A stretch of DNA of 64,000 bases, taken from positions 590,500-654,499 of the forward strand of contig CP121690.1 in NCBI GenBank assembly GCA_038396605.1, read 5' to 3'. Under the pieces are notes generated by a model. It was not told the DNA's origin and ran no database searches. It was given only the letters and a program-made list of their open reading frames with translations. A program made the translations under genes and the position numbers. This document shows positions 41,817 through 58,345 of this stretch, one piece after another. The DNA comes from Eubacteriales bacterium mix99 (GTDB lineage: Bacteria > Bacillota > Clostridia > Caldicoprobacterales > DTU083). Numbering within the stretch: the stretch's first letter is position 1; each line of letters starts with the position of its first letter.

Positions 41817-42065
41817 TTTTGCGCCCCCCATTTTTTAATTAAATTATACTGCATGGTTGCATGGAAAAGCTGTTATAATAAGATCAAACTTGTTGCAGGC
41901 GTTGAATGGGGTTCATGACAAGTGGATACATTATACAATAAAATATGTTTGGCTAATTATGTTCAGCCAAAAAGAGCAGACGAAAGGAAAGAGTACGCAT
42001 ACCTGAGCAAAGAGCCCACTGAGCTCCAGTCATGGACCGGACAAACTTTCACGGAGGCAGAAAAC

Positions 42066-42548
42066 ATGAAAACAAACGGCTTCTTATTCTTTTATCAAAC
42101 TCCCATCGGCAGAATCGGCATTACCGAAAACGGAACCGTACTGACCCATGTCTTTTTTGAGGAGGATTTCATTCCCGATCCCGATCATTGGGAAAGAAGG
42201 GAAACGGATTTGCTTCGGATGGCCGCAACACAGCTGCAGGAATATTTCAGCGGCCGGCGAAAAGTCTTTGATGTTCCCCTGAGCCGGAAAGGTACACCCT
42301 TCCGGCAGAAGGTCCGGGGAGCCCTGCTGGAAATTCCATATGGCGAGACAAGAAGCTACAGGGAAATTGCACGCGCCATAGGCATGGAAAACGCATGCCG
42401 CGCCGTTGGTATGGCAAACAAAAGCAACCCGCTTCCCATCTTTATCCCCTGCCACCGTGTCATCGGGTCCAATGGCAAGCTGATTGGTTATGCAGGTGGA
42501 CTGGACAAAAAGCAATTTCTTCTTGATCTTGAAAAACAATATGTGTGA
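42066..42548 (+). CDS. ogt: Methylated-DNA-protein-cysteine methyltransferase
   Basis: About 160 residues. The active-site PCHRVIG motif with the acceptor Cys, preceded by helix-turn-helix residues (GETRSYREIARAIG), identifies O6-alkylguanine-DNA alkyltransferase (Ogt/MGMT). It repairs O6-methylguanine by suicide transfer. The frame opens at 41922, but GGAGGCAGAAAAC precedes ATG 42066. The upstream 190-base leader has a 7-bp hairpin but no other gene I can support. Confidence 0.92.
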   Translation: MKTNGFLFFYQTPIGRIGITENGTVLTHVFFEEDFIPDPDHWERRETDLLRMAATQLQEYFSGRRKVFDVPLSRKGTPFRQKVRGALLEIPYGETRSYREIARAIGMENACRAVGMANKSNPLPIFIPCHRVIGSNGKLIGYAGGLDKKQFLLDLEKQYV

Positions 42549-42872
42549 AATCCTGCAGGATCCCAACCATTTGAATTGAAAAGCCACAGCCTGATCTGTA
42601 CTTTTTCGACAGTTTGCAGCTCCTTTTTTCATCTCACCCGTTGAATTTACAATTTTTACACTCGATATTTACCATAAATATTCATTATATCAATAATTAA
42701 CCTTCCGTAAATATACGAAAGTTCGTATAATAGAATCATTATGTCATCTGAACCTGTCAGCGCTTAATGATATATCCAGTGGCAGGGTCCATATCAAATG
42801 TTATAAAACGTCTGGATTGCCGATAAGAAAAACCTTCCGGCTCATCCAGCACTTGAAAGGTAGGAGTCAATA
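42549..42872. other. Intergenic region with -10-like sequence
   Basis: AT-rich region before the MalT-like gene. ATACGAAAGTTCGTAT, a near-perfect palindrome at 42713-42728, overlaps TATAAT (42726-42731), so a regulated promoter for the LuxR gene is likely. No gene seen. Confidence 0.4.
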
Positions 42873-44937
42873 TTGTTTCACAAAAGGCAGACTGTTCATG
42901 AGTTATATTTCTTCCCAAAGCAACTGAAGGTTCAGTTGGATTCTATCAGACAGTATCCATTGACCATTGTGGAAGCACCCTCCGGTTTTGGAAAAACAAC
43001 TGCCATACAAAAATATCTGGAGAAAATCTCAGGACCCGCATCTTCTGTCTATTGGTATACCTGTTTAAACGAGCCGCCTTCCGGTATATGGAATGGTATC
43101 TGCAGCCTCTTTGCAAAAATAGATGGGAAAACCGCTGTAAACCTGAACAGGCTGAACCTTCCTGATGCAGATGCCCTGGCGGATTTATCCTCAATGATAC
43201 GGGAAGTTCGCTGCCCGTCGGAAACTTTTCTGGTAATTGACAGCTTTCAGCTTATGAAAAGCCGGATTCCAGAGCAGATCCTTCATGCCTTTTCTGTTCA
43301 TGGCAATGCCAATCTGCACATTATCTGCATCTTCCAACCGCTCCGGGACCGTCCGGAAGCCACCGTTTATCATGCCAATATCCACACCATTGACAGCAGA
43401 CACCTCCTGTTCACCAGGGAAAGCACAGGCAGATACGCCCGTATGGCAGGTGCAGCACTCACGGACAGAAAGCTGGACAGTCTGTACAACCGTACGGAAG
43501 GCTGGATATCGGCGATCCGTCTGCAGCTGCAGCAGTATCAGGAAACCGGGACCTTTGCGCGCACTCAGGGACTGGACCAGCTGGTGGAAACAGCATTCTG
43601 GAACACTCTTGCCAATGAGGAAAAAGAATTCATCCTTGATGTCTCCGTACTGGATGAATTTACAACCAGGCAGGCCCAAAAGATGCTGAATCAAAAAACG
43701 CTGCCGGACAACATACAGCATTTACTTGACAGCAATGAGTTTATCCACTATTTCCCTGAAAAAGATCTCTACACCCTGCACCGTACCATACAGAATTATC
43801 TCCGGGGCCGCTTCTTTAACCAAAAATCGAAAGAGTATCAGACGCAGACGCTCCGCAGGGCAGCCAAAACCTGTTCTGCCATTGCCGACTATTACTCTGC
43901 CGCTTTGTTTTATTACCGGATATCGGATTACGATGCCGTTTTGAATCTGCCCCTGGATATGGAGTATCTGAGCAATCAAAGAGAAAGAAAAGTCCTGGAT
44001 TTTATTGTTGATTTCGTTCTTGCCTGTCCGGAAGAAATCCTGTGCAGACATCCCCGGACGATTATGATATTTGCCCTCCAGTTATATATGGATGGGCGGT
44101 GCGCAAAGCAAAGGCATGCATCAAAAATGCATTTCCCTTTGTACGGAATTTGTTCTTGCGCAGATTGCCCTGCTCCGGGGAGACACGAAAAGCTATTGCT
44201 CGGCTACGGATCGGATACGGCAGTACCGGTCTTCCGGCTCCGAACGCATCCTTCTCCGCATGGCGGAGCTTTGCCTTGCAGAGCTGTCCCTTACCCTGGG
44301 GGAGGACGACGGACTGGCAGACTGGCTATATGATCCGGAGAGCATAAAAAAGGTCCTTTACACTCCCGCAGTACCTTACGGCCTCATACTTTACAGTAAA
44401 ATTTTGCTTCTCCGCAAACGTTATAACGAATTTCGCGGTCTTTCCGCACTGATCCTGGACATATCCAAAGAAATGCATTATCTCCTGCCGCAGGTATATC
44501 AGCTGATTTACCTGGCGATTGTCAAACATGCACAGGGGCGGACAGAAGAAGCGCAAACCCGTCTGAACCAGGCACTTGCCATCGCCTTGCCGGACAAGGT
44601 GTATCTGCCCTTTGCGGTGCATGGCACCGCTCTTGGATCTCTTTTGGAAACCGCCAAACTGTCAGTATCCGATCATAAGGGGATTCGTAATATTATGTCA
44701 CTCGCCCGGCGCCAGGAGGCAGGTATAAAGGCTGTGAGGAAAGCACTGCTTCCCGGAAAATCCCCTCTCACCCCACGGGAACGGGATATCGCCCTGCTTG
44801 CTCAAAAAAGGCTGACGGCCAGGGAAATCGCCAAACAACTTTTCATAACGGATTCCACCGTTCGAAGCACCTTGAAGTCGGTTTATAAAAAACTGGATAT
44901 TCACTCCAAATCCGAACTGGCCCATATGGACCTGTAG
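42873..44937 (+). pseudogene. MalT/LuxR-type ATPase regulator, frameshifted
   Basis: Starts at TTG 42873 behind TAGGAG. The first ~400 residues are the MalT-type STAND regulator: Walker A EAPSGFGKTT and a winged-helix/sensor region. At about 44090 (after FALQLYMDG) the frame changes. The continuation in another frame (IALLRGDTKSYCSATDR) ends in a typical LuxR helix-turn-helix (LTPRERDIALLAQKRLTAREIAKQL). The two parts sum to about 680 residues, shorter than the usual 800-plus, so some sequence may also be missing. As written it makes a regulator without its DNA-binding end. Confidence 0.8.
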
Positions 44938-44940
44938 TCG

Positions 44941-44987
44941 GCCTTTACCACAAAACGCCTTTACCACAAAACGCCTTACCATAAAAC
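44941..44987. repeat. 16-bp tandem repeat
   Basis: GCCTTTACCACAAAAC twice, then a third copy with one deletion and one change. It begins a few bases after the LuxR stop codon. Confidence 0.85.
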
Positions 44988-45108
44988 ACGGCCTCATGGT
45001 TGGATACCAGCTGCCGCATGGGAAAGCCCCCCATAATGGGGGTGTAAAAAAGGACAAACCATCGTATCATATAGGATAGAGGTGGTTTTTTCCCAGGGGA
45101 GGCAGGCA

Positions 45109-46881
45109 ATGGCTATGGAACGGAACAGGTCAAACATCAGTGAGATCCCGCGGGTATGTACCATATATCGTTGGGCATCCCTCCTTGTTTCCACACTGAT
45201 TTACCTTTTTGTCAGTCTGAATGACATCACTCCGCTTCGGGGAGCCATTGCCGCGGGAATGATCGCTGCAAGCGGCATTGGTACCCATCTGTATGGAAAA
45301 ATCGCCTCGTCCCATATGAATCATGCAAACTCATGGATCCTGGCCTCGGAATGCGTGGAGATCACGGCAAATGGTGTCCTGCTTTATCTTTCCGGAGGAT
45401 TTTCCAGCCCTTATCTGTGGTATCTGATCAGTTCCATTGTCATGATCATGGCAACGGAATATTCGGATAAACGATGCGGGTTCGTTCTTTTTCCGGCTGT
45501 TTTCTGGTATCTGATCTGCGCCCGGTTTGGCAGTCAGCGGATGAATTTTCCCCCATCGGCATCCGGCCCGTTCCGCATCAATACGGCAATCGGCTTTCTG
45601 ATGGTGATCTGCGGATTTTATATGCTGTTTCTTTCCATCCGGAAACTGAACCGGGCAAAAAAAGATCTGGAATGCCTGAATGACTCCCTGCGTCAGGAGA
45701 CAGCCCGGAGCGGACAGGCCCTCCGTCATACAATGGAGCTGTACGATACCTTTCAGCTGTTCGGCATTTCCGAACCGCAAAAGGTGATGGATGAAATGGC
45801 GGAGCTTTTGTGCCGCGTCCTGTCCCTGGAATGCTGCATGCTGTTAAAAACAAGCCTTCCGTTTCAGACAGAACACTCCGGCAGTTGCAACCTTTCCGAA
45901 GCGGAAGGGAAACAAATCCTTGAGTATATGGGCAAACGGAATCCGGCCTCTCTCCCGGAACAAAGTAAAAACCAAATTGAAATCGATGGAATCTCCTATA
46001 CGCTGACCGGGATTCGGAATCAGAGCGGCATCGCGGGAGGATTGATTTACCGGAAGGAAAAAAATCCCCCGGAAGACGATATCGATCAAAAAGGCGCTTT
46101 CTATCTGCAACTGGCAGGAATCATTTTTCAAAATATGGACCTTCAGGCCATCGCCGGGGAAAGCATCATCGGAGAGGAGCAGAACCGCATTGCCAGTGAA
46201 ATCCATGATACCGTAATTCAAAAGCTTTTTGCCATTGCATGCAATGTCCGGCTGCTCTCGGAACAGAATCCCATGCCTCCTCCTGAAAAGAGCAAATATC
46301 AGCTCCGGCAGGTTGAAAAATCCCTGAAATCCACCATGCGGGAGCTTCGGGAAGCCATATACAGTACCCACTGGGATTCCGGGGGAAAAGAATCTTTTTC
46401 CGAAAAACTGACAAAGTATCTGGATGAGATACAGGCGCTCAGCGGAGTACGGATCCAGGTCGAAATGGGCGCCGACCCCCAGCGACTGACCGTGACGCAA
46501 AAGACAACAATGTACCGGATCGTCTGTGAAGCAGTAAACAATGCAATACGCCATGGCAAGGCAAGCAGGATCCGGGTAACAATGCATCTTTCCGAAGAAC
46601 AGTGCATTGTGGGGATCTCCGATAACGGTTCCGGATTTAAGCCCGGCAGCCAGCATTACGGTCAGGGACTGAAAAATATGTACCGAATGACAAGCTGTCT
46701 GAAGGGACAGCTGAAAATCAATTCAGGCGCCGGAAACGGGACGGTCATACAATGCCGTTTACCCATTGATTCGTCAACTGGTCAGAGCAACCAGACGAAG
46801 GAGGAAACTCGCTTTGATCTTAATACTGGAAGATCATCCACTCGTACAGCAGGGGCTCCGTTCCTTAATGCAGGCGTATAA
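45109..46881 (+). CDS. NarL-class sensor histidine kinase
   Basis: About 590 residues. An N-terminal membrane part with several hydrophobic segments (residues 10-190) is followed by a GAF-like region, then a HisKA_3 domain with ASEIHDTVIQKLF (phosphoacceptor His) and HATPase motifs AVNNAIRHGKAS, ISDNGSGF and GQGLKNM. It starts at ATG 45109 behind GGGGAGG. The C-terminus runs 68 bases into the response regulator gene and its last ~35 residues are not family-like, suggesting the original stop was lost. Likely sensor of the SipW cluster. Confidence 0.88.
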   Translation: MAMERNRSNISEIPRVCTIYRWASLLVSTLIYLFVSLNDITPLRGAIAAGMIAASGIGTHLYGKIASSHMNHANSWILASECVEITANGVLLYLSGGFSSPYLWYLISSIVMIMATEYSDKRCGFVLFPAVFWYLICARFGSQRMNFPPSASGPFRINTAIGFLMVICGFYMLFLSIRKLNRAKKDLECLNDSLRQETARSGQALRHTMELYDTFQLFGISEPQKVMDEMAELLCRVLSLECCMLLKTSLPFQTEHSGSCNLSEAEGKQILEYMGKRNPASLPEQSKNQIEIDGISYTLTGIRNQSGIAGGLIYRKEKNPPEDDIDQKGAFYLQLAGIIFQNMDLQAIAGESIIGEEQNRIASEIHDTVIQKLFAIACNVRLLSEQNPMPPPEKSKYQLRQVEKSLKSTMRELREAIYSTHWDSGGKESFSEKLTKYLDEIQALSGVRIQVEMGADPQRLTVTQKTTMYRIVCEAVNNAIRHGKASRIRVTMHLSEEQCIVGISDNGSGFKPGSQHYGQGLKNMYRMTSCLKGQLKINSGAGNGTVIQCRLPIDSSTGQSNQTKEETRFDLNTGRSSTRTAGAPFLNAGV

Positions 46882-47448
46882 AAGCGAAGAAGAAATTGTC
46901 TGTGCATCATCCATCGAAAACGCCATGGAGATTCTGAAGGCCCATACCGTCCACACGGCATTCGTGGACATCTATCTGGGAGCAGAAAATGGCCTGGATC
47001 TGCTCGCCTGGGTCAAAAAGCAGAAAATGAAAACCAACGTATTCATCATCACGTCATCCTCCCGGCAAAGTGACTTTGCAAAAGCCCGCGCCCTGGGAGC
47101 AGACGCATATGTTCTGAAAGATGCGTTTCTGGATGAAATTATATGCGGCCTGAAAGTGGTGGAAAAAGGAGGGCGATTCTATTCCACCGCCCTGATTGAC
47201 AAAATGGGCAGCGGCCAGAAACAGAATTCCCTGATAGCCACCTGACAAAACGGGAGAAGGAAGTGTTCTCCCTTTTGGGTAGCGGCAAGAGCAATTCCCA
47301 GATCAGCAAGGAGTTGTTCATCTCAGAGGGAACAACGAAAAAACACATCAGCAATATTCTGTCAAAGCTGAATCTGACCAACCGTGTGGAAGCTGCCCTG
47401 CTTGCCGCCAAAACGACGTCAGAGCAAAAAAATATAATGGGATTGTGA
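46814..47448 (+). pseudogene. NarL-type response regulator, frameshifted before the HTH
   Basis: Starts at TTG 46814 behind AAGGAGG. The receiver domain is intact: LEDHP, Asp in AFVDIYLGAENG, Ser/Thr in ITSSS, Lys in VLKDA. The frame ends at a TGA (47243-47245) just where the linker should continue. In the next frame LTKREKEVFSLLGSGK and QISKELFISEGTTKKHISN give a normal LuxR helix-turn-helix to 47448. A one-base loss near 47200-47230 explains this. No slippery heptamer suitable for programmed frameshifting is visible. Confidence 0.85.
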
Positions 47449-47464
47449 GAAGGGAGAAAAACCT

Positions 47465-48274
47465 GTGAAACGGATATGCAGCAACAGAAGAACCAGACAT
47501 GGCGTACAAATTATCCTGATCCTGCTCGCCCTTTACCTGTTGGGAGTGGGCACCGCATATTCCTCCTGGGCTGACAGGACTTCCGTAGATTTCAGAATGG
47601 CCACAGGTAAGCTGGGCCTGATTTTCCCTGATTCACCGGATCAGGCACCGGTGCAGGCCTGCATTACCGATGCACAGGGCAAAAATCCGGAGAAAATACC
47701 GGCATCGGAACTCCATTATGTATTGGACTACGACAAAAAATCCCTGCAGTTTTCCCTGGACCAGGTCCTGCTCACGGATGATTTCCGAAAGCATGGCAAA
47801 ATGCTGATGTTCCAATACACCATCATTGGAGACGAAGCCAACACGATAAATGATTTCAAACGATCTTCTGCTGCTTTTAAAACGGAACCGGAAGAGCATC
47901 TGGTATTCACACCGAAAAGTTCCAGGGTAAGGGTATCCGGAAAGGAATATGAACTGCCGGAGGATGTATTCGATCAGCTGCCGCCGTTATCCTGGGAGGT
48001 ATATCGCCAGACGGAAACGCAATCCGATAAAGGCCGTTCGGAAATAACAGTAATGGTATATCTGAAGCCCTCTCCGGATGTCACAGAGGGATCTTTCCTC
48101 CCGGAGGAATTCCCGCTCCATGCAGAAGAACTGCCGGCAGAGCTGATTTCGGATCTGACTGCAGCACAAACGGATCCCGAAAACGCTGCAGCCGCCCTGC
48201 CGGAAAAGATCGAGGCGGAAATCGATATTACCTATTCTTTCGAACTGCCTCTGTGGGTGGAACAAAAACACTGA
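47465..48274 (+). CDS. SipW-type exported protein (first substrate)
   Basis: A 269-residue protein from GTG 47465 behind AGGGAG. A hydrophobic segment (residues 14-33, IILILLALYLLGVGTAYSSW) ends in the SipW-dependent signature SSWADRTSVDF, followed by a beta-rich extracellular region with no recognised domain. The C-terminal part (EKIEAEIDITYSFELPLW) suggests an all-beta fold. It is the first of three proteins here sharing this signal type. The next gene starts 18 bases downstream. Confidence 0.75.
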   Translation: MKRICSNRRTRHGVQIILILLALYLLGVGTAYSSWADRTSVDFRMATGKLGLIFPDSPDQAPVQACITDAQGKNPEKIPASELHYVLDYDKKSLQFSLDQVLLTDDFRKHGKMLMFQYTIIGDEANTINDFKRSSAAFKTEPEEHLVFTPKSSRVRVSGKEYELPEDVFDQLPPLSWEVYRQTETQSDKGRSEITVMVYLKPSPDVTEGSFLPEEFPLHAEELPAELISDLTAAQTDPENAAAALPEKIEAEIDITYSFELPLWVEQKH

Positions 48275-48291
48275 TGGGAGGAGAGAACAGC

Positions 48292-48789
48292 TTGAAGAGA
48301 AAAAGCAGGATTCCATGGATTGTTTCTGTCTCATTGGCGCTTTGGCTGCTTGGGATTGGGCAGGCTGCCTACGGATACTGGACAGACCGGCTGAACTCCA
48401 GCGGGACAGCAACCATGCGGCAGAAGGCCACAATATCCGTACAGAAACCGGCTGATCCAACGCCCGAACCGTCTGCCGGTCCAACACCGGACCCCGCAGG
48501 CAATCCATCACCCGAAAAAGAAGTCCGGCAGCTGCCGGATTCCATCCCGGACGGGGAGCAGCCATCGGCAAAACCGGCGGAAAATCCGGATCCCACACAA
48601 GACAGCAAACAGGAAGTTCCAAATATCCCGGATCAGGGGCTGGAAAAAAGGGGATCCGACATATCTCCGCAAAATACGGATTTGCCGCAGGGAATCCCTC
48701 TTCCCGACGCACTCCGGGACAGTTCTTCGGATAAGGGAAATGGAAATTCGTCTTACCCCAGTAAAACGCAGGAAAGGAAGTTGCCATGA
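48292..48789 (+). CDS. SipW-type exported protein, proline-rich (second substrate)
   Basis: About 165 residues from TTG 48292 behind GGGAGGAG. The signal segment IVSVSLALWLLGIGQAAYGYW ends in GYWTDRLNSSGTATM, the alternate signal recognised by SipW-like peptidases. The rest is a low-complexity, Pro/Asp/Glu/Ser-rich stretch (many PTP, PDP and NPS units), suggesting an extended wall-spanning or linker protein. It overlaps sipW by 4 bases. Confidence 0.75.
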   Translation: MKRKSRIPWIVSVSLALWLLGIGQAAYGYWTDRLNSSGTATMRQKATISVQKPADPTPEPSAGPTPDPAGNPSPEKEVRQLPDSIPDGEQPSAKPAENPDPTQDSKQEVPNIPDQGLEKRGSDISPQNTDLPQGIPLPDALRDSSSDKGNGNSSYPSKTQERKLP

Positions 48790-49994
48790 TCCTTTCACAA
48801 AAATACAGCCGTCCGGCTTTCCTTTTGACAGGCGCTGCCATTACGGCAACGCTTTTTTACAGAATACCGGCAATCAACTCCTGGCTGACAGAAATCTGTT
48901 TCTTTTGGCATCCCCTGTTCTGGTGCGGGCTTTCCGTTATCCTGTGGTATCTGCCCCGACCGCATCTGCCTGCCCCGCTTCGTTTCCGTGATCTGTTCCC
49001 CGGCCTTGCCATAAGCTGCATGGCCGTTTATACCTTTCTGCAGTTTCTGGCGGGGTTTTTGCTCAATGAAATTGCAGTAAGTCCATATGACCTTTCACCA
49101 AAGGGAATCCTGATCAATTTTGCGAATCTGCTCCCTCCCATCGCAGGCAGTGAGCTGCTGCGGGCATATTGCATCGGTGCATCCTGCCGCAGCTCCGGTC
49201 GTCCTGCATTCCGGATTGTCCTGGGGGCCTTTATCCTGGGAGCCATGGAGATACCATTTACAAATATCACCACCCTGCATGCCGGAGAGGACTGGTTTAT
49301 CTTTCTGGCCGAAGATTTGCTGCCGCCCCTTGCTCAAAGCGGATTCCTGAGTCTTTTGACTTACTGCGGCGGTGTTTGGCCTGGCATTCTCTATCGGGGA
49401 CTGATCAGTATATTTTTTCATGTGATTCCGTTCCTGCCCTCACTCCCATGGATCGGAAACAGTGTCCTGGGAATTGCCTTTCCGGTCCTCGCCTCCTTTT
49501 TTATCTGGGACCAATACGGGATTGCAACACACAGGGCAAAATGGGAAAAACCACAGTCCATCCTTTCAACCACAATCCTTATGACGGTCTGCATTGCACT
49601 GGCATGGTTTGTCGTCGGCGTTTTTCCGGTGTATCCTTCTGTCATTCTTACCGGAAGCATGGAACCGGAGATTTCTCCCGGAGATGTGGTACTGGTTGAA
49701 AAAATGAAAACAGAAAAGAATATCGACACTCTCTCAAAAAACGACATCATCCATTTCCGGCGGGGAGATATCACCATCACACATCGGATCACGCAGGTGC
49801 TTCATGACAAGGACGGCAATCTATCTTTCCGGACAAAGGGAGACAGCAATGATGATGAGGATACGGAGACCGTGGAACCAAATGATGTCAAAGGGATTGT
49901 AAACCATGCCATCCCGAAAATCGGAATGCCCGTACTGTGGCTGAAAGGCCATGAATCCACACCGGAAGGAGTAATTGACAATGAAACGCCCTGA
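48786..49994 (+). CDS. sipW: SipW-like signal peptidase I with extra membrane domain
   Basis: A 402-residue membrane protein. Residues 270-402 form an ER/archaeal-type signal peptidase: nucleophile Ser 291 in TGSMEP, His 333 in THRI and Asp 353 in TKGDSND, as in SipW of Bacillus, which uses Ser-His instead of Ser-Lys. The first ~260 residues are an additional domain with six to seven hydrophobic segments; SipW of Bacillus has no such domain. A weak likeness to CPBP (CAAX-protease) proteins exists in GSELLRAYCI, but the second Glu and later His pattern are not convincing. It overlaps its neighbours by 4 and 14 bases. Confidence 0.85.
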   Translation: MILSQKYSRPAFLLTGAAITATLFYRIPAINSWLTEICFFWHPLFWCGLSVILWYLPRPHLPAPLRFRDLFPGLAISCMAVYTFLQFLAGFLLNEIAVSPYDLSPKGILINFANLLPPIAGSELLRAYCIGASCRSSGRPAFRIVLGAFILGAMEIPFTNITTLHAGEDWFIFLAEDLLPPLAQSGFLSLLTYCGGVWPGILYRGLISIFFHVIPFLPSLPWIGNSVLGIAFPVLASFFIWDQYGIATHRAKWEKPQSILSTTILMTVCIALAWFVVGVFPVYPSVILTGSMEPEISPGDVVLVEKMKTEKNIDTLSKNDIIHFRRGDITITHRITQVLHDKDGNLSFRTKGDSNDDEDTETVEPNDVKGIVNHAIPKIGMPVLWLKGHESTPEGVIDNETP

Positions 49995-51096
49995 AGCAAA
50001 AGCACTCAGGAAATCGGCCAGGATAACGATCCTTATTTTCGCATTTTTCTTCCTAGCATTATCCATCTACCAGATCTTCAAAGTCACCGGATCAAAGAAA
50101 AAGGTCCGCACGACACTTTACAACTGTTTGATCTCCGCGGACTGCAGCTACCAGGTGATCCTGAAGAAAAACGATCTCTTCCCGGAGGGTGTTCTGGAGG
50201 AGAACCGGATTTATCCCCTGGCCCTGGTGGACCGGGCGGAAATTCTGTTCCGCGCGGAGTACGCCGGATCCGGCAAGGCTGACGTTACCGGGGACTATAC
50301 CATTGAAGCCGTCCTGCAGGGATACAAGAACAACGGGGACGAACAGCAGACCGTTTATGAAAAGCATTTCCCCCTGATTGACCATACTACGGTGAACGAA
50401 ACCGGCGCTCTGAAGATCTCGGAGTCGGTCTCCGTAGATCCTGCGTCTTACAAAAAGACTGCCGAACAGGCCAATGCCATCCTGGGCTTACAGGTTCCTG
50501 CCAACCTGAAAGTCACGATGAGCGGTACCTTCCATGGCGACTCAAAGTTCGGGAAAGTGGAAAAGCCTTTCCGGTATTCCCTGGACATTCCGCTGGAAAA
50601 CTCGCTGTACACTATAAAAAAACCGAACCCGGTGTCGATCCAGGATTCGATAACCGAAACAAAAACCGGCCTGTTCCAATGGACTCCAAAATCCTTTCTG
50701 CCCGCTGTCCTGCTGTTTCTCCTGGCAGCTGCCATGTTTGGGATTCTTGCTTTCCATACCCGAAGACCGACACCGCAGGAACAGCATCGTATGGATATGC
50801 AGAAACTAATCCGGACCTATGGCAGCCGGATGGTTCGGCTTACCCAAATGCCTTCCGCAGCCGATATGGAACAAATCGTAATCACGGATCCGGACAGTCT
50901 GATCCGGCTGTCCGATGATCTTCAGCGGCCCATTTATTATTGCCCGGATGATGAGGGCCTGCCCCGGAACGACCTGTTCTGTCTGTTTGAGAACCATCGC
51001 TGCTATCTGCTGCACCAGAGAGCTGCGGATACAATGAATACACCGGTAAATGGACATACAGGCGGCAGTCACCATAATACTACTTTCGTACCATAA
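49981..51096 (+). CDS. DUF5305 membrane protein
   Basis: About 371 residues from ATG 49981 behind GGAGTAATT. One helix near the N-terminus (residues 18-38), an extracellular beta-rich DUF5305 domain of about 200 residues, a second helix (about 240-262) and a cytoplasmic tail of about 105 residues. DUF5305 is commonly encoded next to SipW-type peptidases; its role is unknown, perhaps as chaperone or anchor for the substrates. It overlaps sipW by 14 bases. Confidence 0.8.
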   Translation: MKRPEAKALRKSARITILIFAFFFLALSIYQIFKVTGSKKKVRTTLYNCLISADCSYQVILKKNDLFPEGVLEENRIYPLALVDRAEILFRAEYAGSGKADVTGDYTIEAVLQGYKNNGDEQQTVYEKHFPLIDHTTVNETGALKISESVSVDPASYKKTAEQANAILGLQVPANLKVTMSGTFHGDSKFGKVEKPFRYSLDIPLENSLYTIKKPNPVSIQDSITETKTGLFQWTPKSFLPAVLLFLLAAAMFGILAFHTRRPTPQEQHRMDMQKLIRTYGSRMVRLTQMPSAADMEQIVITDPDSLIRLSDDLQRPIYYCPDDEGLPRNDLFCLFENHRCYLLHQRAADTMNTPVNGHTGGSHHNTTFVP

Positions 51097-51214
51097 AAAA
51101 TACATCTTTTGCCGGGAAAAGAGTCGACTTCCGGCTGATTTCATCAGAGCTGCCAGCCCTTATACTGTAAGTAGGATAAATTCCAATAAAACATAAGGGA
51201 AAGGAAGAGAAAGT

Positions 51215-52192
51215 ATGAAGAAAAAGAGTCTCATCTGCACGATCCTGGCCATGACATTGATCCTGGCAGGTATTGGGTACGCGTACTGGACAGACACCCT
51301 GCAAGTCAACACAAAAGCCACAACCGGTGATCTGGATGTTACATTTGTGGACTTGGGCCTTTACGCACAGTATGGCTCTGATGAACTGGTCAATGGATCC
51401 GACTGGAGCATCATTGACGGTGTTGGCGACAATGGATATGTGGATGCGCAGTACTTCCGCAGAGGCACAGATTACAACAAAATCGCAGCGGATGGCAACA
51501 TCGACAATTACCATAAGCAGGCGGAAGGCTACAACGATGTATCATTCGATGCCAGTCTCAAGGACAGCAAAGAGATCGGAAAGCAAATCCGTGACTACAA
51601 TGCACAGGTACTCGGCAGTGACGAAATCGAAATTTCCGTCAACAATATGTATCCTGGCTATGCACAGGCCTTCCGTTCGGATATCCTGAACCTCGGCTCC
51701 ATCGCCGCAAGACTGAGCAAACTCCAGTTTGATGTCAATGGGATCGATGGCAAGGAAGAAACTGCAAAGGATATGCTGGGGGTTGCCCTCCTGATACAGC
51801 GGGAATATTACAAAGGCAACAACGATCATGAACATGTATTCGGGCTTGCAGAATCCCTGGGCCTGGATCCCAGTGATATCTTCACCGTCGGCAATGTGGA
51901 CTTTGTCCGTCTCTCTGCCCTGGATAAGGTGTCCGAAGAAGTTCTGAAAGAAAATGCTGAACTGCTGTCCCTGCCCAGTGGAAACAGCATGGATCTGTTC
52001 CTTGGCATTGGCATGGATCCTGATGCAGAAGGCGTTTACACAACCGGTTCCACAAAAGTCATGGCAGACAACGATGACACGCAGAGCCAGAACACCGGCG
52101 CAACCGTCAACGTTAAGCTCATGTGGGATCAGTTCAACGAAGGCAGGGATATAAACTCCACAAACAGACTTGCAGAGCAGAACGCCCGTTAA
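51215..52192 (+). CDS. TasA/camelysin-like SipW substrate
   Basis: A 325-residue protein from ATG 51215 behind AAAGGAAG. The signal segment ICTILAMTLILAGIGYAYW ends in YAYWTDTLQVNTKATTGDLDV, the typical SipW/TasA type junction. The mature part is a beta-rich protein with acid residues, matching TasA/camelysin-type matrix proteins that form surface fibres. It has its own -10-like TATACT upstream (51161), so it may also be expressed separately at higher level. A terminator follows at 52275-52310. Confidence 0.82.
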   Translation: MKKKSLICTILAMTLILAGIGYAYWTDTLQVNTKATTGDLDVTFVDLGLYAQYGSDELVNGSDWSIIDGVGDNGYVDAQYFRRGTDYNKIAADGNIDNYHKQAEGYNDVSFDASLKDSKEIGKQIRDYNAQVLGSDEIEISVNNMYPGYAQAFRSDILNLGSIAARLSKLQFDVNGIDGKEETAKDMLGVALLIQREYYKGNNDHEHVFGLAESLGLDPSDIFTVGNVDFVRLSALDKVSEEVLKENAELLSLPSGNSMDLFLGIGMDPDAEGVYTTGSTKVMADNDDTQSQNTGATVNVKLMWDQFNEGRDINSTNRLAEQNAR

Positions 52193-52559
52193 AGGATTAA
52201 AGATATTTCAAGATCCTGAAAAGAAAGGCTCCCGGTCAAAGCGGCAGTAAGTCAAGAAAATATTGAATGCGATTGTCGGCATGGCATCAGGCTATGCCGG
52301 CTTTCTTTATTTCATGGTTATTTGGCTGGGCTTGGGTCCCGCGCCATGCAGGAAGCTTGTGTATCGAATTGAGAATGACCTGCTGGTCTTATTGTTGGCT
52401 CGTACCGTCCCGCACAGCAATTTGTCCGGTGAAGAATGGGCAGGGCGAAATGCGTGTATTGACGTGAGGGGATGACGATTTGTCATCCCCTCACGCTATC
52501 GGTTCCTGTCTCCAATCGTGAACTTCTTTGACCGGGCAACCCATCGGCGGTCTTTCCTG
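52193..52559. other. Intergenic region after the secretion cluster
   Basis: Holds the terminator above and a perfect 14-bp-arm hairpin at 52463-52495 (CGTGAGGGGATGAC, loop GATTT) without T-run. The open frame at 52263-52475 has no ribosome binding site and covers the terminator, so it is not called. Confidence 0.5.
52275..52310 (+). terminator. Terminator of the secretion cluster
   Basis: GTCGGCATGGC and GGCTATGCCGGC pair around ATCA, followed by TTTCTTTATTT. Confidence 0.75.
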
Positions 52560-55274
52560 TCAGCCTTTCCTTTTCGAAAGAGCATTGCGGATCACCTTGG
52601 TCAATTCGCCGAATACCAGCGGAAGAAGGGCAAGCGCAATCACAAAGTCCCAGTCATACCAATGGAACAGCTCCACATTAAACACACTCCGCAGCCCCGG
52701 GACAAGCAGGATGACAGCCATAAGCGCAAAGGAGAAAACAAAGGCCAGATTCATGCTGCGGTTGCTGAATATCCCGATCTTCCAGATGGGATACTTCTCG
52801 GATCGTGCGGTATAGGCCCGCAGCAGTTCACTGGTAATCAAGGTAACCAGCGCATAGGTCTGCCCCATTTCCAGTCCATGATTCTGCCACCCATAATAGA
52901 AGGACGCCAATACCGCAATGGTCATAATCACACTCTGCACTGCAATGGATATTGTCATTCTGCGGTCAATGATGGATTCATTCGGGTTACGGGGCGGATC
53001 CTTCATCAGACCGGGTTCCTTTTTCTCGGTGCCGAGAGCCAGAGCCGGAAAAGCATCCGTCAGCAGGTTGACCCATAAAAGATGAATTGGCAGCAATGGG
53101 ATCGGCCAGTTGAACACCATGGCCAGGAAAATAATCAGAATCTCCCCCACATTGCAGGACATCAGGAAAAATACAAACTTGCGGATGTTGCTGTAAATCA
53201 CACGGCCTTCCCCCACAGCTGCAACAATGCTGGAGAAGTTGTCGTCTGTAATAATCATATCTGCGCTTTCCTTGGCGACATCCGTGCCGGTAATCCCCAT
53301 TGCCACACCGATATCGGCACGTTTCAGGGCAGGCGCGTCGTTTACACCGTCGCCGGTCATGGCGGTGATCTCGCCGTTGTCCTTCAGTGCCTGTACAATA
53401 CGCACTTTATGCTCAGGGGAAACCCGGGCAAATACACTGACCGTCTTCACCGCCTTGTTCAACTGCGCGTCGTCCATGCGATTCAGCTCCGCGCCGGTCA
53501 ATACTTCCTTTTCTGTGGAAATGATGCCCAGCTTACGGGCAATGGCAGCAGCCGTCTCCCGATAATCCCCGGTAATCATCACGGCACGGATCCCGGCAGA
53601 TTTGCAGGTCCGGATCGCTTCGATGGCTTCGCTCCGGGGCGGGTCAATCATACCCACCAATCCGCAGAACACCAGGTCCTTTTCATCCTGTTCCGGCGTC
53701 GGATTCTCCGGAATGTCCGGAATGATTTTAAATGCCATGGCCAGTACCCGGTAAGCCTGTTTTGCCAGGGCCTCATTCTCCGCCATAATCGTTTGGACAT
53801 CCTCCGGAGATATAGGCACCACCGTTCCATCGCTGCGCATAATATGCGTGCAGCGCTCCACCAGAATATCCGGTGCGCCCTTGGTGAATGCCACTGGCTG
53901 ATTGTCCTTCGTCCGATGAAAGGTGGTCATCAGTTTACGCTGGGAATCAAAGGGAATCTCCTGCAGCCTGGGCTGCTCCCGATTGATTTCGTTCCGGTCA
54001 ATCCCCGCCTTGGCAGCTGCAACCACCATGGCTCCCTCGGTGGGATCCCCGATCACACGCCATTCATCGGAACCGCCTTCCGTATCCTGCTCAAGACGGG
54101 AGTCATTGCAAAGTACCTGTATTTCCAGCAGGCGTGCCACCGCCGGCTGCTCCGGCAGATTGATGTCCCTGCCCTGAATGGTCAGGGACCCTGTCGGATT
54201 ATATCCATCTCCGGTCACATCGATTTCCTGTCCCGGGGTATACATCTTAACAATGGTCATCTGATTCTGGGTCAGTGTCCCGGTCTTATCCGAACAAATC
54301 ACCGTTGTGCTTCCCAGGGTTTCCACAGCGTGAAGCTTCTTCATGATGGAATTGTGCTTTACCATACGCTGCATGCCCAGGGCCAGCACAATCGTGACTA
54401 CTGCAGGAAGCCCCTCCGGGATAGCCGCGACAGCAAGACTGACAGCGGTCATAAACATTTCAAGAACCTCTTCCCCACGAATCAGTCCCATAACAAAGAC
54501 AACTGCGCAAATGATCAGGCAGGCAGTGCCCAGCATCTTGCCCATCTGCGCAAGCTTTTTCTGCAGAGGGGTGTTTCCTTCCTTATCCTCCTGAATCATT
54601 TTGGCGATATTTCCCACGACGGTATGCATGCCGGTGGAAATTACGATGCCGCTTCCCCTGCCATAGGTAACAATGGTACTCATAAAGCCGCAGTTGATCT
54701 GATCGCCGAGACCAATATCGCCTTCCAGCTGTGTGCCGGCATTCTTGTCCACCGGAACGGATTCCCCCGTCAAAGCCGCCTCCTCCACTTTCAGGTTCAC
54801 GGAAGAAGCCAGCCGGACATCAGCAGGAATATAATCACCGGTTTCCAGCAGGACAACATCACCGGGCACCAGATCAGTTGATGGAATGGTCTGGGTTTTG
54901 CCGTCGCGGATCACATTGGCGTTGGGCGCAGACATCTTCTTCAGCGCCTCCAGTGCCTTACCGGCACGATACTCCTGCACAACGCCAAGAACGGCATTGA
55001 TGATGACAATACCGATGATCACCACGGAATCCACCACTTCTCCAATGGCGATGGATACAAGGCTGGCGATAATCAGAATGATTACCATATAATCCTTCAG
55101 CTGCTCCACGAACATCTGAAAAATGCCCGGGCCTTCCTTGTGCGCCAGTTCATTGGGCCCATATTTTTCCCGCCGGGATCGGACATCCGCGGATCGCAAT
55201 CCGGTGGTGGGGTCTGTACCAAGTGCTTTACAGGTTTCTTCAATGCTTTTTTGATACCATGGACGTTTCTCCAA
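52560..55274 (-). CDS. Calcium-type P-type ATPase (PMCA/SERCA-like)
   Basis: A 904-residue type II P-type ATPase. The phosphorylation motif DKTGTLTQNQ with catalytic Asp, TGES, the hinge MTGDGVNDAPALKRADIG and about ten transmembrane segments are present. Calcium-site residues are conserved: PEGLPA in helix 4, CNVGE in helix 5 and NLLTD in helix 6. It exports Ca2+ from the cytoplasm. Start is TTG 55274 with a moderate ribosome binding site. Its promoter lies at 55441-55469. Confidence 0.92.
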   Translation of the reverse strand: MEKRPWYQKSIEETCKALGTDPTTGLRSADVRSRREKYGPNELAHKEGPGIFQMFVEQLKDYMVIILIIASLVSIAIGEVVDSVVIIGIVIINAVLGVVQEYRAGKALEALKKMSAPNANVIRDGKTQTIPSTDLVPGDVVLLETGDYIPADVRLASSVNLKVEEAALTGESVPVDKNAGTQLEGDIGLGDQINCGFMSTIVTYGRGSGIVISTGMHTVVGNIAKMIQEDKEGNTPLQKKLAQMGKMLGTACLIICAVVFVMGLIRGEEVLEMFMTAVSLAVAAIPEGLPAVVTIVLALGMQRMVKHNSIMKKLHAVETLGSTTVICSDKTGTLTQNQMTIVKMYTPGQEIDVTGDGYNPTGSLTIQGRDINLPEQPAVARLLEIQVLCNDSRLEQDTEGGSDEWRVIGDPTEGAMVVAAAKAGIDRNEINREQPRLQEIPFDSQRKLMTTFHRTKDNQPVAFTKGAPDILVERCTHIMRSDGTVVPISPEDVQTIMAENEALAKQAYRVLAMAFKIIPDIPENPTPEQDEKDLVFCGLVGMIDPPRSEAIEAIRTCKSAGIRAVMITGDYRETAAAIARKLGIISTEKEVLTGAELNRMDDAQLNKAVKTVSVFARVSPEHKVRIVQALKDNGEITAMTGDGVNDAPALKRADIGVAMGITGTDVAKESADMIITDDNFSSIVAAVGEGRVIYSNIRKFVFFLMSCNVGEILIIFLAMVFNWPIPLLPIHLLWVNLLTDAFPALALGTEKKEPGLMKDPPRNPNESIIDRRMTISIAVQSVIMTIAVLASFYYGWQNHGLEMGQTYALVTLITSELLRAYTARSEKYPIWKIGIFSNRSMNLAFVFSFALMAVILLVPGLRSVFNVELFHWYDWDFVIALALLPLVFGELTKVIRNALSKRKG

Positions 55275-55440
55275 AATTACACCTGCTTTCTGCTACTATC
55301 AAATGTCGACTGAAAAGCCGCAAAACATCCGCCGATACGGTCTGCCCTCCCCGCGCGGCAAACAAATGGTACCGGCAGATATTTCACTATGTTATTTTGC
55401 CGGAGGCAGAAAAAAGATAATTTCCCTGCCAATTGTCATA

Positions 55441-55469
55441 ATTTTATCACTGCTGTCCGGGTTTGGCAA
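55441..55469 (-). promoter_or_regulatory. Promoter of the calcium ATPase
   Basis: On the minus strand TTGCCA (55464-55469), a 17-base spacer and TAAAAT (55441-55446). The ISLre2 element inserted 39 bases upstream of it. Confidence 0.55.
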
Positions 55470-55497
55470 CACACATTCCATCGTTAGTGTATAATTT

Positions 55498-55508
55498 TCG
55501 ATTCCATC
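55498..55508. repeat. Target duplication of ISLre2 copy 2 (left)
   Basis: TCGATTCCATC, repeated exactly at 57401-57411. Confidence 0.85.
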
Positions 55509-55565
55509 GTTAGCGTAAAGTTACCGTAGGGATTAAGAGTAATAAATTACCATAAGGATTGAAAA

Positions 55566-55628
55566 GAAGGTGGCATCCTGCTAAAATATTGATCATCAAC
55601 AAAAATATCAAGAAAGGGTGCCACCTTC
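55566..55628 (+). promoter_or_regulatory. Hairpin that would hide the transposase start (copy 2)
   Basis: Same 14-bp stem as at 17649-17711. Confidence 0.6.
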
Positions 55629-55629
55629 C

Positions 55630-57048
55630 ATGTACAGTATACAAGATTTTAACGAGTTTGCAAGAAAAACAGAAAATAAGGTAAGAGAATTTTTAAGGGA
55701 AGGTAAGGATCTGGCGGAACTGACTCTGGGGCTGCAGGAGGATCTGTTTGAACTTGGTCGGAATATACTGGTGGAGACTCTTGAGGGGATGGATGAACAG
55801 CTTCGAAAGTCCGGGGTCAGGAAAAACAATTGGGAGATTGTCAGGAAAGATGAGACAGGGATCTTAACGACCTTTGGAACGATCAAGTATAATAGAACGT
55901 ATTTTAAGCCAAAGAGTGGTGGCAAAAGGAAATATCTCGTTGATGAGCTTGTTGGTCTTAAGCCACATGACAGAGTGAGTGCGGATGTGGTGATCAATGT
56001 GGTGGAAGAGGCCATAGACAGCAGCTACAGGAAAGGTGGAGAAAGAGCCGGATATATGGACGAAATAAGCAAGCAGGCTGTTATGGATAAAATACATAAC
56101 CTTGAGATCAGCGAACATGAGCATAAGGTGGACAAGAAGAGGGATGTCAGGATACTGTATGTTGAAGCAGATGAAGATCATGTTTCCCTGCAGGGAGAAG
56201 ACGATAAAAGCAAGATAGCTATGCCCAGGCTGGTTTATGTTCATGAAGGCGTAGATCCCGAAAAAAGCAGCCAAACAAGGACCAGGCTTAAAAACGTTAA
56301 ATATTTTGGCGGCATGTATGATGAGAGCGAGGATCTGTGGCTGGAGGTCATAGAATATATAGACAAGCAGTACAACATGGATTTCATTGAAACCATATAC
56401 CTTTCCGGGGATGGGGCATCATGGATTAAGGCCGGGCTTGACTGGATTCCCAAAAGCAAGTTTGTGCTGGACAATTTTCATCTTAAGAAATATATGATAA
56501 CTGCGACTGCACACTTAAACGATGGAGACATCTATCAGGAGTTGAAGGATGCATTGGATTGGCCGGACAAGGACATGGTCAAGGATGTTTTCAAGAAGAT
56601 CCTCAAACAAACGGTTTCCAAAACGAAGAGGAAGGCAGTTAAGGATGCCAGACGGTACATATTGAATAACTGGCATGGAATAGAAATAAAGGCTGATAAG
56701 GACCATGAACTGATAGGATGCAGTGCCGAAGGTCATATAAGCCATGTGTTTTCAAGCAGGCTAAGCAGCAGGCCTAAGGGATGGTCTGAAAAAGGTGTTG
56801 CCAGGATGTCCAAACTTATCGTATATAAGAAAAATGGTGGCAGGATCTATGACCTGGTTATGGCACAGAAGCTTAAGGAGAAGGAGAACAGGAAACATGA
56901 ATTGCAGGATGAGTTAATCAAGGAAGTAAGGAAATCATCAGAAAGCAGATATGCTGGTTCATGGAGTAGCAGCCCAACTGTAATTACCATGGGGAAAAAG
57001 ACAGGGCTGTTTAATGAGATGAGGAGTATGGCCGGAATACGCTATTAG
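55630..57048 (+). CDS. ISLre2 family (UPF0236) transposase, copy 2
   Basis: Predicted protein identical to the one at 17713-19131, with the frame intact. Same preferred ATG start. Identity with copy 1 shows recent transposition or gene conversion. Confidence 0.88.
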   Translation: MYSIQDFNEFARKTENKVREFLREGKDLAELTLGLQEDLFELGRNILVETLEGMDEQLRKSGVRKNNWEIVRKDETGILTTFGTIKYNRTYFKPKSGGKRKYLVDELVGLKPHDRVSADVVINVVEEAIDSSYRKGGERAGYMDEISKQAVMDKIHNLEISEHEHKVDKKRDVRILYVEADEDHVSLQGEDDKSKIAMPRLVYVHEGVDPEKSSQTRTRLKNVKYFGGMYDESEDLWLEVIEYIDKQYNMDFIETIYLSGDGASWIKAGLDWIPKSKFVLDNFHLKKYMITATAHLNDGDIYQELKDALDWPDKDMVKDVFKKILKQTVSKTKRKAVKDARRYILNNWHGIEIKADKDHELIGCSAEGHISHVFSSRLSSRPKGWSEKGVARMSKLIVYKKNGGRIYDLVMAQKLKEKENRKHELQDELIKEVRKSSESRYAGSWSSSPTVITMGKKTGLFNEMRSMAGIRY

Positions 57049-57113
57049 GCCCTTCATAAAGCTCGTTATGGCGTTTTCGTTCTTCGTAAGGAGAAATAGC
57101 CGGGACGACATAG

Positions 57114-57270
57114 ATCAAGCGTTTATGCCGCGAAAGCTGCTTGATAACGAGAAGTCGGTGTGGTAGCATTGAGGTACGGCAGCAACCGCTCCAAAGCCTA
57201 TCCCGCTGTTAGAGATGGCTGCTGCCGACATCTGCCGTAAGCCACACCGGCAGAGGCTCGTTGTCAAGCA
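57114..57270 (+). ncRNA. Candidate structured RNA in ISLre2 3' part (copy 2)
   Basis: Same nested stems as at 19197-19353. Confidence 0.45.
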
Positions 57271-57400
57271 GATCGTGGAATAAATGCAGCTGACAAGATT
57301 GATTGCTGTTAAAATTAATTAAATCAATCAAGGCCACTGTTGCTAGAAGAATATTTCAGGATGTCTCTATTCTTTCTTTCCCTACAGTAAATTGACGCTA

Positions 57401-57411
57401 TCGATTCCATC
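57401..57411. repeat. Target duplication of ISLre2 copy 2 (right)
   Basis: TCGATTCCATC, identical to 55498-55508. Confidence 0.85.
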
Positions 57412-57475
57412 CCCAGCCTGGCAAGTTTCCTTCGGAACGTGATATAATAAAGTACGGAAAGGAGATTGATCGAAA

Positions 57476-58345
57476 ATGCGATTGGGGAGAAATGACAGCT
57501 GCTGGTGCGGCAGCGGGAAAAAATATAAACAATGCCACGAGGCGTTTGACGAGAAAATTGCATCCTATCGAAGAAAGGGGCACATCGTCCCGCCCAGGAA
57601 AATCATCAAGATCCCGGAGCAGATAAGCAAAATACGGGAAAGCGCAAAAATCAACGTTGCGGTTCTGGACGCGGTTGCAGAGCAGATACAGGAAGGCATG
57701 TCCACGGAAGATATCGACCGGATCGTTTATCAGAAAACCATCGATCTAGGCGGTACGCCTGCCCAGCTTGGATACGAAGGCTTTCCCAAAAGCGTCTGTA
57801 CCTCCATCAACGAAGAAGTCTGCCATGGGATCCCTTCAAAGGACCGGCTTCTGAAAAGCGGAGATATCATCAATGTGGACGCCTCCACCATACTGGACGG
57901 TTATTTTTCGGATTCGTCCAGAATGTTCTGCATCGGAAACGTGGAGGAAGACAGAAAAAAGCTGGTACGGGTCACAAAGGAATGTGTGGAACGGGGATTA
58001 AAGGAAGTAAAGCCCTGGGGATTCCTGGGGGATATGGGCCAGGCTGTGCATGAACACGCGGTGGAAAACGGATATTCCGTGGTGAAGGAAATCGGCGGCC
58101 ATGGTGTAGGCCTGGAGTTTCACGAAGATCCATGGGTTGGATACTGTTCCAGGCGGAATACCGAGATGCTTCTGGTACCGGGTATGATCTTTACGATAGA
58201 GCCCATGATCAATATGGGTACGAGCCGCATCTATCAGGACAGGAAAAACGGCTGGACCATCTATACCGCAGACGGAAAGTCATCCGCCCAGTGGGAGATT
58301 ATGGTGCTGGTGACAGAGGACGGCCATGAAGTACTGGCCTGGTAG
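57476..58345 (+). CDS. map: Methionine aminopeptidase with N-terminal SEC-C motif
   Basis: A 289-residue type I methionine aminopeptidase. An N-terminal SEC-C zinc motif (NDSCWCGSGKKYKQCH, residues 5-21) precedes the catalytic domain. Metal ligands are visible: Asp in NVDAST, Asp in FSDSSR, His in GGHGVGLEFHEDP, Glu in TIEPM and Glu in WEIMVLVTEDG. It removes the N-terminal Met of new proteins. AAAGGAG precedes ATG 57476 and TATAAT (57443-57448) is the likely -10; the upstream ISLre2 element replaces the region just beyond the -35. Confidence 0.92.
   Translation: MRLGRNDSCWCGSGKKYKQCHEAFDEKIASYRRKGHIVPPRKIIKIPEQISKIRESAKINVAVLDAVAEQIQEGMSTEDIDRIVYQKTIDLGGTPAQLGYEGFPKSVCTSINEEVCHGIPSKDRLLKSGDIINVDASTILDGYFSDSSRMFCIGNVEEDRKKLVRVTKECVERGLKEVKPWGFLGDMGQAVHEHAVENGYSVVKEIGGHGVGLEFHEDPWVGYCSRRNTEMLLVPGMIFTIEPMINMGTSRIYQDRKNGWTIYTADGKSSAQWEIMVLVTEDGHEVLAW

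Follow-up and report, generated by a model that had tools for sequence, protein, structure and literature searches.

What does a compact run of genes around a SipW-type signal peptidase build, and is it still controlled by the two-component system encoded at its start? The locus lies in a window of 64,000 nucleotides (the whole stretch of DNA that was analysed) and comprises seven genes on the + strand (45109–52192), encoding a histidine kinase (HK), a response regulator (RR), two exported proteins (SUB1 and SUB2), a SipW-type peptidase (long SipW), a DUF5305 protein and a TasA-like protein. A preliminary description made from the sequence alone had proposed such a one-directional cluster, mostly with overlaps or gaps under 20 bp and closed by a terminator, and the open reading frames, the Pfam and NCBIfam profiles and the hairpin at the end bear it out (Table 1). 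Intergenic distances are 16, 17 and −4 bases, one overlap measures about 14–20 bases, with TTG 49975 as a possible alternative start of the DUF5305 gene, and the TasA-like gene has a 118-base gap on its 5′ side. No clear shared promoter motif emerged upstream of the TasA-like gene when four loci were compared, and no Rfam element was found in 42000–58000. All three exported proteins carry a common signature after a hydrophobic segment, as had been noticed before, but the motif is Trp-x-Asp (WAD in SUB1, WTD in SUB2 and in the TasA-like protein) and not Trp-Asp.

Table 1. Features of the gene cluster, with positions in the window.
Feature	Position	Strand	Remarks
Sensor histidine kinase (HK), NarX/LiaS type, multi-TM N-terminus	45109..46881	+	Profile matches, alignment
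RR receiver half (REC)	46814..47245	+	Ends at TGA attributed to a 1-base deletion; same in UBA4874
RR NarL/GerE DNA-binding half	47242..47448	+	−1 frame; first standard start GTG 47263, within HTH domain
SUB1	47465..48274	+	SipW-type signal peptide (YSSWAD), donor-strand-like N-terminus; homologues in L053, L055, L126
SUB2	48292..48789	+	SipW-type signal peptide (GYWTD), short N-terminal segment, Pro-rich disordered tail
Long SipW	48786..49994	+	~250-residue multi-helix domain, CPBP-like by prediction, and ER-type S26 peptidase (S291, H333, D353/D359)
DUF5305 protein	49981..51096	+	TM, extracellular beta-sandwich, TM, cytosolic domain (model)
TasA/AbpX-like protein	51215..52192	+	SipW-type signal peptide (YAYWTD); TTGDLDVTF and PG...N-x-G motifs
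Terminator-like hairpin at cluster end	52275..52301	+	11 pairs, then T-rich

The seven-gene order HK-RR-SUB1-SUB2-SipW-DUF5305-TasA-like recurs exactly in three other loci (L053, L055 and L126), which with the window represent four families, and the core of the cluster was found in 41 loci across the phylum, the module being spread over many of its families. The neighbourhoods of these loci were fetched and then mapped with profiles built in this analysis, so that the gene maps are uncurated combinations of ORF calls and profile matches. Long SipW is present in 18 of the 391 genomes of the class and in 26 of 398 of the phylum. DUF5305 accompanies it in all 18 of these class genomes, as compared to 31 of 391 overall (Fisher p about 4e-23, ignoring kinship between genomes). 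In 30 of the 41 loci the DUF5305 gene lies directly 3′ of long SipW; eight more have it elsewhere in the cluster, and the remaining three are on short contigs. By gene-order conservation and co-occurrence, the cluster is more than a chance association. At least 17 of the 41 loci include an HK and RR of this type, and the others have a regulator alone or no such pair. The constant part of the system is therefore the fibre module, to which a two-component system is often, but not always, added. Searches with the peptidase as query returned UBA4874 alone among genome contigs and nothing among viral contigs.

Several variants and neighbours of these clusters were also seen. A gene for a PilT-like ATPase lies directly 5′ of the kinase in L052, L056 and L057; the comparable operon of Clostridium perfringens is influenced by a type IV pilin. 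L065–L069 represent a parallel type of cluster, with a kinase-regulator pair, another DUF5305-like protein, a 4-TM S26 peptidase and small exported proteins bearing a SENALIAI-like motif. Two genomes of the same family (L013, L014) encode a separate short SipW and two or three FAWFTD-type exported proteins adjoining ABC transporters, and an exported protein of ~400 aa, with a motif like VxITIDxxGxxxQxGxxF, recurs within the clusters of one lineage (L046, L048, L050, L051). In the window itself, an insertion-sequence-like element (55508–57401) that UBA4874 does not have contains a 476-aa ORF (55618–57048), presumably a transposase resembling ISLre2/UPF0236.

The assignment of the peptidase as a Ser-His signal peptidase holds. 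It matches TIGR02228 with 65 bits (cut-off 51.85), which places it among the ER-type (SipW-like, S26B) enzymes, and its C-terminal part matches human SEC11 (E 8.5e-23). S291, H333, T350, G352 and N355 are invariant in 40 long SipWs, and D353 is kept in 39. The protein does not belong to the Bacillus SipW equivalog NF046067 (66.7 bits versus a curated cut-off of 190), and it is the only ER-type signal peptidase in its genome. For its N-terminal ~250 residues we obtained no significant Pfam match, none of 16 members of the family matching CPBP in Pfam, and no sequence match to CPBP proteins in the PDB. In the AlphaFold2 model of the peptidase (pLDDT 79.8, pTM 0.72) this domain resembles SpdC (Z 14.8, rmsd 4.6, 230 residues) and Rce1 (Z 12.9, rmsd 3.9, 215 residues), both comparisons resting on one predicted model; the next unrelated helical match follows well below, at Z 7.1, and Foldseek gave a weaker match to Rce1 (E 0.21, probability 0.87). 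The domain has no conserved His, its only conserved polar residues being N111, E123 and R126, and the CPBP/Abi catalytic motifs (EExxxR, two His) are missing from it. We infer a CPBP-like domain that would have no protease activity, as in SpdC. In the genomes of the class and phylum it was found only in ORFs that can also hold the peptidase, contig-edge cases apart.

Among the exported proteins, the TasA-like protein barely exceeds the cut-off of TIGR04088, the profile of SipW-dependent signal peptides (19.2 bits, cut-off 19), SUB2 scores below it (13.5 bits) and SUB1 gave no match. As a single sequence the TasA-like protein had no match in the PDB, whereas the profile of its family (A4) is related to solved fibre subunits, with AbpX as the best match (9sj2, E 3.5e-15) and TasA as a weaker one (5of1 and 8aur, E about 0.017). 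Both matches to the TasA profile in this genome fall within the cluster, and by its sequence the protein is the probable major fibre subunit. The SUB1 profile aligns with the TasA-like protein over the signal peptide and the first strand (hhalign 95%). Since SUB1 was not detected by a TasA-like profile stripped of the signal peptide, what links it to TasA is the N-terminus together with a similar C-terminal motif. SUB1 relatives in the exact-order loci are 22–30% identical and end alike in a P-x-x-x-E-Q-like motif; a single-sequence search of 99 relatives reached the same species only, and divergent members were recognized solely via their gene neighbourhood. SUB1 is best described as a probable minor fibre subunit related to TasA. 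Short proteins of the SUB2 type, composed of a signal peptide, a WxxxLxIxG-like segment and a low-complexity tail, are encoded directly 5′ of the peptidase in many loci. TasA fibres assemble by exchange of N-terminal donor strands (PMC9674648), and the N-terminus of TapA, of which ~14 mature residues suffice, starts them (PMC10151520). SUB2 is a probable primer or anchor of the TapA kind, which would give a strand but not take one. Both proteins had been put forward as less described substrates; they are instead conserved components with a plausible role, and not novelties of this genome.

These relationships bear on the earlier suggestion that the locus serves the assembly of a surface fibre or coat. 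The operon might make a non-filamentous coat, or monomeric surface or signalling proteins resembling camelysin, with DUF5305 as a membrane receptor and no fibre at all. Camelysin (Peptidase_M73) is the nearest Pfam name, though below its cut-off, neither SUB1 nor SUB2 falls into a Pfam or NCBIfam class, and the number of exported proteins varies among related loci; yet AbpX and TasA, to which the TasA-like protein is structurally closest, are fibre subunits, and a donor-strand-like N-terminus is common to nearly all exported proteins of the clusters. We consider a locus that makes no fibre improbable. The best reading of the locus is a surface fibre: we think it likely that the operon builds a donor-strand fibre of the TasA/AbpX type, for which it would supply a primer and a minor subunit as well as a platform in the membrane.

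The DUF5305 protein is a clear member of its family (PF17231, 98.8 bits, cut-off 29). Its model (pLDDT 84.9) places a beta-sandwich (residues 41–233) between two transmembrane segments, the second at 238–261, followed by the cytosolic domain. A fold search found no specific relative, the beta-sandwich matching generic Ig-like folds with Z ≤8.1, and the literature searched contained no mention of DUF5305. Its constant linkage to long SipW suggests a membrane platform with a role in assembly or anchoring.

The preliminary description had also given the cluster its own two-component system, with the regulator counted as one gene. HisKA_3 and HATPase domains were matched in HK, whereas the Response_reg and GerE domains of RR were matched in separate frames, the DNA-binding ORF running from 47263 to 47448 in a frame other than that of the receiver ORF, so that no protein here combines receiver and GerE domains as in NarL-type systems. 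In relatives, including L053, L055 and L126, RR is one continuous protein of 203–226 aa. Alignment with these intact proteins puts the break exactly between the receiver and ‘(T)LTKREKEV’, the receiver frame being conserved up to the residue preceding LTKREKEV and the DNA-binding frame from that L onward, a pattern that fits deletion of a single base from a short run of C. The identical break is present in UBA4874, an independently assembled genome that is 99.8% identical to the window over 13.6 kb, the differences being 12 substitutions and a single 16-base repeat unit; a sequencing error is thereby ruled out. Judged from the two sequences, the frameshift is a real mutation in this species, and probably a recent one. 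The HK ORF is ~36 codons longer than in relatives and overlaps RR.

Could programmed −1 frameshifting still join the two halves of RR into a single protein? At the junction, a 7-bp hairpin (47252–47272) lies 6 bases past the stop and the two frames overlap by ~43 bases, but an in-frame slippery heptamer is missing, the RR of relatives is read in a single frame with the same residues flanking the junction, and a one-base loss in the C run accounts for the split. We regard such recoding as highly improbable. With RR frameshifted, the two-component system of the cluster is probably non-functional here.

Directly upstream, a MalT-like LuxR regulator (42873–44937) is frameshifted as well, into two overlapping ORFs, and the same two occur in UBA4874 (L011). 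As none was seen beside the exact-order relatives, it was not counted among the parts of the cluster. A 16-base tandem repeat (44941–44987) separates it from the kinase, and UBA4874 has one copy fewer.

With a broken RR and an altered HK end, the operon could be decaying or silent in this species. In the stronger form of this idea expression has been lost and the remaining genes are unused, which is compatible with a fibre in relatives. It draws on the same altered kinase end and on the RR deletion and MalT-like frameshift being shared by the two genomes available for the species; against it, none of the five genes for secretion and substrates is interrupted, their catalytic residues and signal peptides are conserved, the two halves of RR carry no further damage, so that the event looks recent, and just 3 of the 12 substitutions between the window and UBA4874 fall within the five genes. 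On balance we find decay rather unlikely, and retain a fibre-building operon as the preferred reading.

Of known systems, the sipW-bsaABCRSD operon of C. perfringens comes closest; it combines BsaA filaments that depend on SipW, accessory secreted proteins and, in the same operon, the BsaRS pair required for its bimodal expression (PMC7395162). A dedicated two-component system is thus not as little described as had been supposed. The window shares with that operon a SipW-type peptidase, a probable filament protein that depends on it, further secreted proteins and a two-component pair, which in C. perfringens activates the operon from within, but in C. perfringens sipW comes first, the two-component system comes late and the RR works, whereas in the window it is broken; going by its description, that operon has neither DUF5305 nor a CPBP-fused SipW reported, and the window has DUF5305 and a predicted fusion of this kind. 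The tapA-sipW-tasA operon of Bacillus subtilis (PMC9674648, PMC10151520) likewise has a dedicated ER-type peptidase, a main beta-sandwich subunit and a primer with a donor-like N-terminus, and TapA resembles SUB2 in position and architecture. In B. subtilis, however, SipW is short and TapA carries a folded Ig domain where SUB2 has only a disordered tail; the operon, regulated by SinR, lacks DUF5305 and a two-component system. Archaeal bundling pili (AbpX, PDB 9sj2/9rhp; AbpA of Pyrobaculum) supply the best solved-structure match to the TasA-like family profile, a likeness that covers the subunit alone in an archaeal system. SpdC of Staphylococcus aureus (LyrA; PDB 6u0o), which serves SagB as a scaffold with a CPBP fold, resembles the model of the peptidase N-terminal domain, whose family has no conserved catalytic His; in the window the domain is fused to a signal peptidase and lies in a probable fibre operon. 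To the sipW-bsaABCRSD and tapA-sipW-tasA type the window would thus add, by its sequence, the CPBP fusion, DUF5305 and a strand-plus-tail protein.

We propose that SUB1, SUB2 and the TasA-like protein, whose signal peptides have a cleavage site followed by an aromatic residue and W-x-D, would all be cut by long SipW, as the sole enzyme of its type in the genome. The TasA-like main subunit would then polymerise by donor-strand exchange, its N-terminal strand YWTDTLQVNTKATTGDLDVTF completing the sandwich of the next subunit, with SUB1 as a minor subunit in the fibre. As SUB2 has only a disordered tail behind its donor-type N-terminal segment, it could donate a strand and not receive one, and may prime or anchor the fibre like TapA. 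The CPBP-like domain may act as a non-proteolytic scaffold, as SpdC does, and, jointly with the DUF5305 protein anchored in the membrane, may provide a place of assembly where polymerisation is tied to cleavage. Relatives would use HK-RR to activate the operon, much as BsaSR activates bsaA in C. perfringens; in this lineage, given the one-base deletion in RR, control may have been lost or passed to another regulator. In this scheme the genes and their order, the active site of the peptidase, the fold match, the kinship with TasA and AbpX and the frameshift are read from the sequence, whereas polymerisation, regulation and the parts played by SUB1, SUB2 and DUF5305 are proposed. More tentatively, and with rather less confidence than in the fibre itself, the fusion of a dead CAAX-protease-like domain to the peptidase may together with DUF5305 be a dedicated platform where subunits are cut and passed on for donor-strand polymerisation, primed by the neighbouring minimal strand-plus-tail protein; this would be a Gram-positive analogue of the chaperone-usher principle.

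Most of what is known of TasA-type fibres comes from Bacillus, C. perfringens and archaea, and to our knowledge how their growth starts and is tethered to the membrane is an unsettled question. The module found here pairs a fibre subunit with two constant membrane partners, the CPBP-peptidase fusion and DUF5305, in the 18 class and 26 phylum genomes counted above, and often adds a minimal primer-like protein. It provides directly testable candidates for how fibre growth starts and is tethered, and it suggests a function for DUF5305, a domain of unknown function.
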